38,760 nt of DNA from a virus: positions 1 through 38,760 of the IMG/VR virus record IMGVR_UViG_3300036864_000092. One strand, written 5' to 3'. The notes beneath the pieces were generated by a model. That model was not told the origin of the DNA and did not search any database. It was given only the letters and a program-made list of their open reading frames with translations. Below, piece after piece: positions 11,525 through 20,280 of the stretch. Made by a program: the position numbers and the translations under genes. How positions within the stretch are numbered: position 1 is the stretch's first letter; the number at the start of each line of letters is the position of its first letter.

Positions 11525-11842
11525 ATGAACAAATACAAAGCCATCCGCACTACTGTTGATGGTATCACCTTTGACAGCAAGGGAGAGGCCAAGCGGTATC
11601 AGGAGCTTTTGCTACTTCAACGAGCTAATGTCATTTCAGGGCTACAGCGGCAGGTAAAGTACGTGTTCACCCATAACGGGATTAAGCTAGGCTCTTATGT
11701 GGCGGACTATGTGTATCAGGAAGGCCCTAAAACCGTTGTAGAAGACTTTAAGAGCCCTGCGTCTATGACGCCACTATACCGCATGAAGAAAAAGCTTATG
11801 AAGGCGTTCTATGCGGTGGATATATTTGAAAGTCACAAATAA
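11525..11842 (+). CDS. DUF1064 endonuclease-like protein
   Basis: A 105-aa protein matching DUF1064: begins MNKYKAIRTTVDGITFDSKG and continues EAKRYQELLLLQRANVI, then SYVADYVYQEG and VVEDFKSP, the PD-(D/E)XK-type core (E of the EAKRY helix, D of ADY, E-D-F-K). DUF1064 proteins resemble T7 endonuclease I / Holliday-junction resolvases, so it may debranch replicating DNA before packaging. TGAGGAGTCAGT precedes the ATG. Last gene of the plus operon, followed by a terminator at 11943. Confidence 0.82.
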   Translation: MNKYKAIRTTVDGITFDSKGEAKRYQELLLLQRANVISGLQRQVKYVFTHNGIKLGSYVADYVYQEGPKTVVEDFKSPASMTPLYRMKKKLMKAFYAVDIFESHK

Positions 11843-11942
11843 CCTGTGCTATAAGTCTTCAGCGCCAGTGTTACCCAAACAGCCTTGTTAGCGCATAGCG
11901 GAATGGGCCTGGCGCGTTTCCTCCTGCCTGTCGAAGTACAAA

Positions 11943-11968
11943 AAGGGGTAGCTGCGATTCTACCCCTT
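11943..11968. terminator. Bidirectional intrinsic terminator
   Basis: AAGGGGTAG (11943-11951) and CTACCCCTT (11960-11968) form a 9-bp stem with an 8-base loop, followed by CTTT on the plus strand and a run of T on the minus strand. It ends the plus operon and backs up the terminators of the opposing strand. Confidence 0.75.
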
Positions 11969-12039: not shown

Positions 12040-12067
12040 AAAAAAGGCCCCGGCTACATGCTGGGGC
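12040..12067 (-). terminator. Intrinsic terminator of ncRNA 3
   Basis: Minus strand GCCCCAGC (12067-12060), loop AUGUA, GCCGGGGC (12054-12047) with one G-U pair, then C and six T (12045-12040). A textbook terminator for leftward transcription. Confidence 0.82.
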
Positions 12068-12178
12068 GCTGAAGTGTGAGTATCTCTCTGAAGGACTCCC
12101 GCACGTAATTCCCCACCATTTCGCGGCATCCTGTGGGCGGATGTGCTAACTATAAGGTCACTTCACCGCGTATTCTCT
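12040..12178 (-). ncRNA. Putative structured ncRNA 3
   Basis: No ORF of note. The minus strand has a promoter-like pair just upstream and an intrinsic terminator at its end. Between them, CGCGG can pair with CCGCG, CAUCC with GGAUG, and GUG-CGGGAGU with ACUC-CAC; GAAGUG and CACUUC offer an alternative 6-bp pairing. No family recognised. It is supported as an RNA gene by signals and foldability only. Confidence 0.5.
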
Positions 12179-12180
12179 CC

Positions 12181-12209
12181 ACCCTACCCAACCCCGCAGG
12201 TGTTGACAA
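12181..12209 (-). promoter_or_regulatory. Promoter-like pair before ncRNA 3
   Basis: Minus strand TTGTCA (12209-12204), 17 bases, TAGGGT (12186-12181). The -10 is GC-rich and matches the -10 of ncRNA 1 exactly. It begins right after the T tract of the ncRNA 2 terminator. Confidence 0.5.
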
Positions 12210-12210
12210 G

Positions 12211-12244
12211 AAAAACCCTCCCCATAACTAGTATCTAGGGAGGG
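12211..12244 (-). terminator. Intrinsic terminator of ncRNA 2
   Basis: Minus strand CCCTCCC (12244-12238), a 15-base loop, GGGAGGG (12222-12216), then five T (12215-12211). It is a leftward terminator. Confidence 0.78.
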
Positions 12245-12274
12245 CGTTTGTAGGGCCTAGGCGTCCATTTATTC

Positions 12275-12350
12275 AGCGGCAGGGGACACTCCACGCTACG
12301 CTTCACAGCGTTTCGCCTTTCGGCTCGTCAGGCGTCAATTAAGTGCCGCT
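12275..12350 (-). ncRNA. Type I hammerhead ribozyme
   Basis: All core parts are present on the minus strand. CUGACGA at 12331-12325; stem II GCC-GAAA-GGC (12324-12315); GAAA (12314-12311); stem III ACGC/GCGU with loop UGUGAA (12311-12298, including the A15.1-U16.1 pair); cleavage base A at 12297 (GUA). Stem I is the open one: ACGC (12335-12332) pairs with GCGU (12296-12293), then an internal loop, then AGCGGCA (12350-12344) pairs with UGCCGCU (12281-12275). An alternative outer pairing GGCACU/AGUGUC exists. Hammerheads self-cleave by transesterification; phage examples are known. Predicted cut between 12297 and 12296. Confidence 0.88.
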
Positions 12351-12394
12351 CCAGATGTTCTCATGTCTTCCCTACTGGAGAACCAGCGCACCCC

Positions 12395-12423
12395 CTTATA
12401 ACCAAAAAGGCCAGCCCCCGCAA
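12395..12423 (-). promoter_or_regulatory. Promoter-like pair before ncRNA 2
   Basis: Minus strand TTGCGG (12423-12418), 17 bases, TATAAG (12400-12395). It overlaps the 3' arm and T tract of the ncRNA 1 terminator, so one RNA ends where the next may start. Confidence 0.5.
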
Positions 12424-12436
12424 GCAGGAACCGGCC
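12404..12436 (-). terminator. Intrinsic terminator of ncRNA 1
   Basis: Minus strand GGCCGGTTCC (12436-12427) pairs, with G-U wobbles, with GGGGCTGGCC (12418-12409), followed by five T (12408-12404). It acts on leftward transcription. Confidence 0.72.
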
Positions 12437-12590
12437 CCAACGGCCATGAAACAGCGACAAGGCGGCTCCATGGCACTACTCTATGAGTTACGTGTGCACT
12501 AAGTCATTATTTCCCATCGGCTTTACCCGGTATGGACTGGTGCTACGTGTTCCTTTTGGGAATCCGCTGACTCTTTCCAGTTAGGCGCAC
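12404..12590 (-). ncRNA. Putative structured ncRNA 1
   Basis: About 185 nt with nested helices seen by eye: GUGUGC (12592-12587) with GCACAC (12497-12492) closes a domain that contains ACUGG/CCAGU, a UUCC-CAAAA-GGAA hairpin, and CCAU-AC-CGG with CCG-AUGG. A terminator follows. There is no ORF of note. The nested complementary pairs suggest selection for structure; the family is unknown. Confidence 0.55.
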
Positions 12591-12595
12591 ACCCC

Positions 12596-12624
12596 ACCCT
12601 ACCACCGCTGGGGAAGAGACTCAA
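12596..12624 (-). promoter_or_regulatory. Promoter-like pair before ncRNA 1
   Basis: Minus strand TTGAGT (12624-12619, overlapping the stop codon of the 110-aa gene), 17 bases, TAGGGT (12601-12596), then GGGGTGTG. It shares TAGGGTGG with the ncRNA 3 promoter. Confidence 0.45.
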
Positions 12625-19191: not shown

Positions 19192-19280
19192 AGGGGAAAG
19201 CTTAATGGGTTTTTGACGTTGTGACAATACTGCAACAGTGGGTCAAAAGGCTTCTTCATCCCCTCTTGTCAAGATAGTTC

Positions 19281-19337
19281 TTGTGCATAAACTCATAAGT
19301 GCGGTATCCATAAGGATATCGCTAACCAAGGAAAGGA
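19281..19337 (+). promoter_or_regulatory. Promoter and leader D of the plus-strand moron
   Basis: TTGTGC (19281-19286), 18 bases, TATCCA (19305-19310), then GCTAACCAAGGAAAGGA (19321-19337) before the ATG at 19345. CATAAG (19309-19314) is a second -10 choice at the six-base distance seen in leaders A, B' and C. The leader is a variant of GCTAACAAGGAGA. Confidence 0.5.
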
Positions 19338-19344
19338 TACTGTT

Positions 19345-19557
19345 ATGCATGACAGTACCAAAACAAAGAAGTTCTACATGGGGGTTCAAACCACCATGCG
19401 GGGCTACATAAGCCAACTCTACGAGATAGAGCCGGACATATTTCCGGATGGCTATCCCGAACTGGCAACCCGCAAAGCTAACAAGCTAAGCGAAGTTGTC
19501 AGGGGGTTGAGCGACCTGTTGAACATCGAGGATGAAATATCCAAGTTGTTTAAATAG
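19345..19557 (+). CDS. Moron protein, 70 aa
   Basis: Begins MHDSTKTKKFYMGVQTTMRG and is helical with a mixed charge (SEVVRGLSDLLNIEDEISKL). First gene of a plus-strand cassette set inside the leftward late genes, followed by a terminator. AAGGAAAGGA precedes the ATG. No family recognised. Confidence 0.75.
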   Translation: MHDSTKTKKFYMGVQTTMRGYISQLYEIEPDIFPDGYPELATRKANKLSEVVRGLSDLLNIEDEISKLFK

Positions 19558-19571
19558 GTTCCTTGGGGAGA

Positions 19572-19593
19572 ACCGGGAGCTTCGGCTCCCGGT
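19572..19593 (+). terminator. UUCG-loop terminator
   Basis: ACCGGGAGC (19572-19580), loop TTCG, GCTCCCGGT (19585-19593), then CATTTT. A 9-bp perfect stem with a UUCG tetraloop after the 70-aa gene. The T tract is short, so some read-through into the lipoprotein gene is possible. Confidence 0.75.
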
Positions 19594-19619
19594 CATTTTA
19601 ACCATTGAAAGCAAAAAAG

Positions 19620-20054
19620 ATGAAACTTATCTATCTTCTCCCCCTTACTCTCGCTGCCTGTTCCTCCCTTGGAACCGGTATTGACCCTAACAAAATGGCC
19701 TATTCAGACGCTAACTTAAGTGAATGGCGTACCGATCAACCGGAAATAGGCGACTGTGTAGACTATACTTTAGGGATGTCCCGTAAGTTAGGGGGTGGTG
19801 GGTATTTGGTAGGCACCTCAGCCCAAGGTGGGCAGGATCACGCCGTCCTTTATCATTCCGGCAAAGTTTATGACCAACTCGGCCAAAAGATACGGCCAGC
19901 GCAAATTATAGGCTCTGTGGCCTGTGACCTCACGACAGGGAATGTTGGCTTCATCAATCCGCAAACCCAGTTCGTTCCGTTCACCACGCTCAATAAGTCT
20001 GAGTTTGGGGCACATTGCCAAAAAGCAGCTAGGGAACTCAATGCGTCCAAATAA
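19620..20054 (+). CDS. Lipoprotein with transglutaminase/papain-like motif
   Basis: A 144-aa protein. MKLIYLLPLTLAAC is a lipoprotein signal with lipobox LAAC (Cys14). GDCVDY (Cys46), DHAVLYHSG (His74) and VYDQLG (Asp85) follow the Cys-His-Asp order of bacterial transglutaminase-like cysteine proteinases. It would be exported and lipid-anchored, most likely facing the periplasm or cell surface. As a moron-type gene it could modify the envelope or block superinfection, but substrate and activity are not shown. The ATG at 19620 has only an A-rich leader. Confidence 0.72.
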   Translation: MKLIYLLPLTLAACSSLGTGIDPNKMAYSDANLSEWRTDQPEIGDCVDYTLGMSRKLGGGGYLVGTSAQGGQDHAVLYHSGKVYDQLGQKIRPAQIIGSVACDLTTGNVGFINPQTQFVPFTTLNKSEFGAHCQKAARELNASK

Positions 20055-20280
20055 ACGCGCTCAAATCATAGCGGGGGCCTATTCGGTAGTTTACCGGGGG
20101 CTCCCCTTTACCTTAGAGAACGTGGCAAAGGAGGCCGGTGTGTCGCGCGGTGGTATTATCTACCACTTCTCAACACTCACTGATTTAATCCGGGCTCTTA
20201 TTGACCACGCGGCGCTTCGTAACGGTAGCCAACATAGTCGAAATCCACGAAAACGCGGCTCCCGCCTGCCTTCTTCGTAA
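20041..20280 (+). CDS. TetR-type DNA-binding domain, truncated
   Basis: A 79-aa protein, MRPNKRAQIIAGAYSVVYRG followed by PFTLENVAKEAGVSRGGIIY and HFSTLTDLIRALIDHA, matching the TetR N-terminal HTH (about residues 8-55). Normal TetR proteins are about 190-210 aa; the ligand-binding part is missing. AGGGA lies six bases upstream; the start overlaps the end of the lipoprotein gene. The last 83 bases read opposite to the 3' end of the fibre gene at 20198. Whether it is a functional small regulator or a remnant cut by insertion is open. Confidence 0.78.
   Translation: MRPNKRAQIIAGAYSVVYRGLPFTLENVAKEAGVSRGGIIYHFSTLTDLIRALIDHAALRNGSQHSRNPRKRGSRLPSS

Follow-up and report, generated by a model that had tools for sequence, protein, structure and literature searches.

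What does a phage carry in a non-coding stretch of some 780 bp at the downstream end of its late genes? The window analyzed here, the complete 38,760 bases of an IMG/VR virus record, is placed as a P22-like podophage by its terminase subunits, portal, scaffold, coat and head-closure proteins. Its head-closure protein shares at most about 37% identity with those of isolates such as Rhodoferax phage P26218, and its portal shows 37–45% identity, in the best segments, with the closest IMG/VR contigs. The late genes occupy the minus strand; a lysozyme at 14.4 kb and small genes that end at 12621 close the series. The stretch in question (11.84–12.62 kb) lies directly downstream on the same strand and is met by three convergent plus-strand genes; these end at 11842, and the final one encodes a Holliday-junction resolvase. 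Because the equivalent convergent junction measures only about 110–130 bp in the P22-like relatives that were read, the segment is peculiar to the lineage of the window. The RNA element described below was absent from the P22-like relatives found by resolvase, hc3 and portal; a single marginal match in one of them (L008, E=0.03) is not believed. No relatives were found for the flanking 110-aa protein, and neither blastn of the region nor megablast of 25 kb matched any phage record.

A preliminary description had proposed that this segment, taken to be the only long non-coding region of the genome, holds three small-RNA genes, each with a promoter, a structured body and a terminator. The stretch is indeed non-coding, since no ORF of at least 50 aa lies wholly inside 12150–12620. 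The statement about the region is roughly true, except that 19228–20197 holds just two plus-strand ORFs (70 and 149 aa, neither with a PHROG match) and forms a second stretch that lacks recognizable minus-strand genes. The three proposed minus-strand intrinsic terminators, each a hairpin with a T tract, are present in their places, and a fourth that had been missed brings the tandem series to four (Table 1). A hairpin and T-tail scan of the whole genome found minus-strand matches at 12407, 12214 and 11942, within 470 bp, which rank first, third and fifth among its ten matches; in the remaining matches the stem is interrupted or the T-tract is poorer. The terminators of this stretch are unusually clustered. 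The one at 12040 was caught by neither scan, on account of the form of its T-tract or of its loop, and is plain in the sequence as a stem at 12069–12046 followed by T6.

When 77,450 positions were ranked by a sigma-70 weight matrix, the three proposed promoters came 237th (12624), 725th (12423) and 33rd (12209); the third stands out, the other two are no better than chance, and a consensus promoter scan found none at the array. Nor are the units repeats of one layout in the sense of homology, as their bodies cannot be aligned to each other beyond the 10-mer GGTAGGGTGG, which units 1 and 3 share at their putative -10 regions (12596–12624 and 12181–12209). With two mismatches allowed this 10-mer is mildly enriched in the window (55 occurrences against 38.6 expected), and may represent a promoter motif specific to the phage. 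The folding energies of the single sequences are unremarkable, with z-scores (-1.47, -1.18, -0.87 and -1.58) that are not informative.

Table 1. Features of the array, in coordinates of the window.
Feature	Position	Strand	Basis
Unit 1, non-coding segment	12404..12620	-	no relatives, no match to model R1
Intrinsic terminator ending unit 1	12403..12438	-	-21.9 kcal/mol, scans
Whole structured RNA of unit 2: hammerhead in double-pseudoknot shell	12250..12396	-	blastn to L022, model R1
Possible outer closing stem P0 (AGGGGGUGCG 12396-12387 / CGCCCUCCCU 12246-12237)	12237..12396	-	by eye, one mismatch
Shell helix a (GUUCUC 12383-12378 / GAGAAC 12362-12357), loop holds b	12357..12383	-	99% of cells paired, 5/6 pairs compensatory
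Shell pseudoknot helix b (GUAGGG 12375-12370 / CCCUAC 12255-12250)	12250..12375	-	80% of cells paired, 5/6 pairs compensatory
Shell helix c, outer part of hammerhead stem I (AGCGGC 12350-12345 / GCCGCU 12280-12275)	12275..12350	-	covariation
Type I hammerhead ribozyme	12293..12335	-	three-stem descriptor; predicted cut 12297/12296
Shell pseudoknot helix e (GUGUCC 12289-12284 / GGACGC 12266-12261)	12261..12289	-	100% of cells paired, 5/6 pairs compensatory
Intrinsic terminator ending unit 2	12210..12246	-	-17.4 kcal/mol, T tract at 12214
Putative promoter TTGTCA-17-TAGGGT	12181..12209	-	weight-matrix rank 33 of 77,450; consensus match only
Unit 3, non-coding segment	12038..12205	-	no relatives, no match to model R1
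Intrinsic terminator ending unit 3 (GCGCCCCAGC..GCCGGGGC-T6)	12040..12069	-	read from sequence
Fourth terminator, palindrome between convergent transcripts (AAGGGGUAG..CUACCCCUU)	11940..11968	-	-13.8 kcal/mol

The middle unit (unit 2, 12396–12211 on the minus strand) is a real structured RNA, as had been proposed, of a kind that the preliminary description did not recognize: a hammerhead ribozyme within a larger conserved structure. The hammerhead reads, on the minus strand from 12335 to 12293, ACGC CUGACGA GCC-GAAA-GGC GAA ACGCU-GUGA-AGCGU A / GCGU, with the cut predicted at the slash. The proximal part of stem I is formed by ACGC and GCGU (12335–12332 and 12296–12293), stem II by GCC-GAAA-GGC (12324–12315) and stem III by ACGCU-GUGA-AGCGU (12311–12298), while the core consists of CUGACGA (12331–12325), GAA (12314–12312) and A17 at 12297. 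The residues C3 U4 G5 A6 N7 G8 A9, G12 A13 A14, the pair A15.1-U16.1 and H17 are all present; four, three and five pairs flank the core in stems I, II and III, and stems II and III are closed and stem I is open. The window hammerhead thereby agrees with every criterion for core residues and core-flanking pairs by which hammerheads have been accepted (PMC3088659). A three-stem descriptor has a single match in the window; 1168 dinucleotide-shuffled copies of the entire window together gave two. The Rfam model Hammerhead_1 (RF00163) gives 17.2 bits against a gathering score of 34; canonical hammerheads in L015–L017 score no better, so this model is insensitive to the group. In a nested thermodynamic model the probability of stem I is just 0.03 for the window and lies below 0.5 for 31 of 33 members, so that the model does not discriminate.

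Relatives were sought with two patterns. The first, a hammerhead core with a 3-bp stem II and a GAAA loop, retrieved 22 IMG/VR contigs, and most of the genuine ones match the flanks of unit 2 over about 140 nt. The second contained only the ends of the surrounding structure, hereafter the shell, and no hammerhead letters; it does not match the window itself, and it found 33 viral contigs and one Patescibacteria MAG. An intact hammerhead core is present in 27 of the 28 distinct viral shells with an insert of 55–85 nt. Beyond viruses, a single match to the strict shell pattern was seen among 84,980 prokaryote species genomes. Altogether, pattern scans gave about 40 relatives, from IMG/VR and from phages or plasmids of Arthrobacter, Mycobacterium, Microcystis, Enterobacter, Pectobacterium and Acinetobacter hosts. 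Two loci that matched the core pattern (L014 and L035) were rejected, as not all of their stems form, and three others (L018, L023 and L028) were chance matches inside genes.

Within the set of fetched loci, blastn aligned the window from 12392 to about 12253 with L022 at 72.7% identity over 143 nt (E=9e-19). A shell-only covariance model (R1), from which the ribozyme had been removed and which was built from 26 other sequences with the window excluded, matched unit 2 as two abutting halves, 12327–12247 and 12388–12328, at E-values (1.2e-6 and 0.028) that are rough; it is the ribozyme insert that divides the two halves. R1 recovers the expected members and gave no match in the P22-like relatives L005–L007. 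In Rfam, which the preliminary description had named as a check, no family was found for the window at gathering or lax thresholds (release 15); a search with 11 member loci at the gathering threshold returned only tRNAs and an unrelated ALIL pseudoknot, and one with a shell-only member returned nothing up to E=10.

The shell comprises about 95 nt folded into two interlocked pseudoknots in the order a-b-a'-c-e-c'-e'-b', with the hammerhead between c and e, such that b/b' crosses over a/a' and e/e' over c/c'. In the alignment (A1), the seven helices follow the order a, b, a', c, d, stem II, stem III, d', e, c', e', b'. Helices a, b, c and e all form in the window sequence and covary across the family, and the hammerhead stems (helices 4–6 of the alignment) covary among 33 relatives. 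For the 33 sequences, 94.5% of cells are paired and 27 of the 35 pairs have double-sided changes, both pseudoknots included, in an alignment whose assembly from exact-pattern matches over-represents the conserved ends. In columns 55 and 56 of helix c, the sole AU and the sole GC are compensatory pairs of the window itself. The covariation score of 0.614 compares with 0.166 for shuffled alignments (none of 500 reached it), which mere kinship of the sequences could beat, and with 0.06–0.10 for slid controls, which preserve kinship. Four stretches are conserved and unpaired in the family (ACAUCUGG, CGUGGAG, GAAUAA and CCUAGG), and they read ACAUCUGG, GCGUGGAG, GAAUAAAUGG and CCUAGG in the window. 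Taken as sequence evidence, these results leave little doubt that unit 2 belongs to the shell family and carries a hammerhead ribozyme, and its RNA very probably cleaves itself, at the predicted position 12297/12296.

An outer closing stem, P0, may complete the structure. Of 44 members, 13 have closing stems of at least 12 uninterrupted bp, where mismatched flanks would lead one to expect 0.33, and long closing stalks of this kind, as in rRNA precursors, are possible substrates of RNase III. In the window, the longest uninterrupted run of P0 is only 7 bp, and its putative 3' arm doubles as the 5' arm of the next terminator, that at 12214.

The strongly covarying pairs that the preliminary description had named as support are thus found only for the middle unit. 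Units 1 and 3 have no relatives by sequence search, and R1 gave no match in units 1, 3 or 4 of the window. By eye, unit 1 (CCAU/AUGG, GGGAAAUAAUGA) and unit 3 (ACAUCCGCCCAC..GUGGGGAAUUAC) resemble the shell, a likeness that no test supports. A topology-only descriptor, devised to tell whether they are degenerate shells, was dropped, as it matched 1584 of 1593 shuffles.

The family includes several forms that depart from that of the window. Members in canonical order are present in Arthrobacter phage Karkharias, whose core is intact, in the Mycobacterium abscessus prophage phiGD24-3 and in an Aquitalea plasmid. A sister clade (L015/L017 and L029) keeps the layout a-b-a'-c-hammerhead-e-c'-e'-b' with different conserved letters (CAUGCCC..GCGCCCCCUA..GGGGC..CAAGG). 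In eight contigs (L067 and L069–L075) the shell occurs without a ribozyme, with one or two nt between c and CCGUGGAG; another contig (L068) has a short insert and no hammerhead, and Microcystis phage Mwe-JY26 also carries a member without a ribozyme. Circular permutations occur in Enterobacter phage SDFMU_EhYP, Pectobacterium phages Pappous and Taid, Dickeya phage Setonix and Acinetobacter plasmids. In these the hammerhead comes first and is followed by e, c', e', b', a linking hairpin, a, b, a' and c, where the register of c and e was read by eye; L080, L081, L083 and L084 are members of this permuted kind. The hammerhead core is a variant, UUGAUAA, in Mycobacterium phage Gaia (L077), which with the Acinetobacter locus L083 represents the damaged cores; the Gaia RNA is predicted to stay uncut. 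G12 is changed to A in the Acinetobacter plasmid copy, and this hammerhead is probably inactive. The shells of L037/L054 and L066 hold an insert other than a canonical hammerhead, that of L066 (CUGAGGU..GGUGAAAAAUCCC) having the appearance of a decayed or variant one. Since some relatives have damaged cores or no ribozyme at all, cleavage is not essential everywhere. Moreover, the existence of shell-only and circularly permuted members indicates that the folded shell, not the order of the chain, is what is kept, and the shell, rather than the cut, appears to be the functional core.

The genomic neighborhoods of the members are of several kinds. Many lie within or beside tRNA genes (L020, with 28 tRNAs, L044, L051, L055, L065, Gaia, phiGD24-3, Mwe-JY26, L082 and L083), and others adjoin terminase, portal, head or tail genes (L022, L038, L050, L057, L058, L063, L069, L070, L072 and L080–L082). 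Several are located just upstream of a gene (L030 and L032), a position that would suit a role in cis. Arrays of such RNAs exist elsewhere, as L058 has two tandem hammerhead RNAs (2549–2883) directly before its terminase small-subunit gene. Farther upstream in L058, to about 3060, come another small structured unit, the third, and a repeated spacer some 33 nt long (CGCCCGGAGCC..AAGG..GGGTAAAGTC), and by eye a lysine-rich mini-ORF, MGTKKKGGKKY, can be read on the minus strand (about 2511–2478) between the RNA array and the terminase genes.

We consider the probable explanation of unit 2 to be a widespread phage RNA family in which a shell that may serve as a stable trans-acting RNA has its ends set by a hammerhead. 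The fold, its covariation, the intact catalytic core, the distribution among phages and the ribozyme-less and permuted forms can all be read from the sequences. The late minus-strand operon, or else a weak start nearby, is the probable source of the transcript, which would end at 12214–12210. Cleavage between 12297 and 12296 would leave a 2',3'-cyclic phosphate and a 5'-OH on GCGUGGAG. Because the site lies in the short 4-bp helix between c and e, helices b and c, and probably P0, would keep both pieces joined after the cut, and the product would be a nicked shell with the conserved CCGUGGAG-like strand (CGUGGAG) freed at its 5' end. Such a nicked shell might be a phage RNA that is stable, matures together with tRNAs or late mRNAs and acts in trans, and for which the hammerhead would set the ends or the nick. 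We infer that cleavage takes place in the cell, that the RNA is stable and that it acts in trans. Proximity to tRNA genes and occurrence in widely separated hosts favor a stable RNA that acts in trans on a conserved target; we regard it as an evenly balanced proposition that the shell is such an RNA. A bolder version, to which we would give somewhat less than an even chance, is that a phage-wide RNA class acts in trans on a host component conserved across Actinobacteria, Proteobacteria and Cyanobacteria, such as one involved in translation, tRNA maturation or RNA decay, and is activated by the built-in hammerhead when the conserved strand is freed.

The main rival to a trans-acting shell RNA is a role in cis, in which the element would process or attenuate the 3' end of the late transcript, such that folding or cleavage of the shell decides between termination and read-through. 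The hammerhead would cut read-through mRNA, and formation of P0 would compete with the 12214 terminator. The location of the array on the strand of the late genes and directly downstream of them speaks for this model, and the arm shared by P0 and the terminator (12246–12237) would allow attenuation. A terminator lies at most 110 nt away in 13 of 43 members; however, none is found there in the other 30, many members reside inside tRNA arrays, the ribozyme-less and permuted forms retain the whole shell, and the P0 of the window has a mismatch and a short uninterrupted run of 7 bp. A cis role is thus unlikely, if by no means negligible. It is improbable that the array consists of three independent small-RNA genes, each with its own promoter and terminator. 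The tandem terminators, a third promoter site in the top 0.05% of positions and the L058 array of such RNAs accord with that proposal, but the promoters of units 1 and 2 are at chance level, the bodies are non-homologous, and units 1 and 3 lack both relatives and a match to the family model, so that the original claim is not supported. We find it very improbable that the hammerhead serves to produce circular or re-ligated RNA, with a host or phage RNA ligase rejoining or circularizing the pieces on the shell as a scaffold. Hammerhead ends are ligatable and circularly permuted genes exist, but with one hammerhead per element no unit-length circle can be excised. Finally, chance resemblance to a hammerhead can be dismissed. 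By chance a window should contain the loose core pattern alone about two times, but the full descriptor only about 0.002 times, and the flanks, which were not used in finding the first homologs, align and covary over some 140 nt.

Phages have been known to carry hammerhead ribozymes since about 2011. The roles of those in prokaryotes are an open question (PMC6155905), and the family described here makes the question of what phage hammerheads are for directly testable. It offers a covarying partner structure, natural controls that lack the ribozyme, and circular permutations, and it has members in phages of laboratory hosts, namely Mycobacterium phage Gaia on M. smegmatis and Arthrobacter phage Karkharias. 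Databases that lack it would gain a structured RNA family, and if the RNA does act in trans as a class switched by its hammerhead, it would be a naturally occurring ribozyme-switched RNA, some of whose relatives are circularly permuted and others ribozyme-less.

The hammerhead itself is known; the shell around it may constitute a new RNA class. The open-access papers searched do not describe the shell structure, and individual hammerheads of the group may be listed already. The type I hammerheads (Rfam RF00163; PMC3088659) share with ours the catalytic core, the three stems, of which II and III are closed and I is open, and a location in phages such as many hammerheads of bacteria and phages are reported to have. 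Here, however, stem I leads into a conserved shell (about 95 nt) that combines two pseudoknots with unpaired invariant stretches, and the shell also exists without the ribozyme and in circularly permuted form. The phage hammerheads of PaP3 and Bcep176 were tested in that study (PMC3088659); a search of both genomes did not find the shell, and they are not counted as members. Theta ribozymes (PMC10879173) are likewise self-cleaving ribozymes among phage tRNA genes, but those are HDV-like, whereas here a hammerhead is held in a different and wider shell that also occurs far from tRNAs. The non-circularly permuted hammerheads (HRIMA-1 / type SGC; PMC10085705) also combine a hammerhead core with several pseudoknots and an altered chain order. 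In that case the blocks of the core are reordered, whereas here the core keeps the type I order and the shell and ribozyme are circularly permuted as a whole in some phages. Lastly, a pseudoknot-containing hammerhead has been described (PMC11300833) in which the pseudoknotted ribozyme itself closely resembles pistol; in the present family, by contrast, the pseudoknots form an external shell, one that also exists free of any ribozyme.
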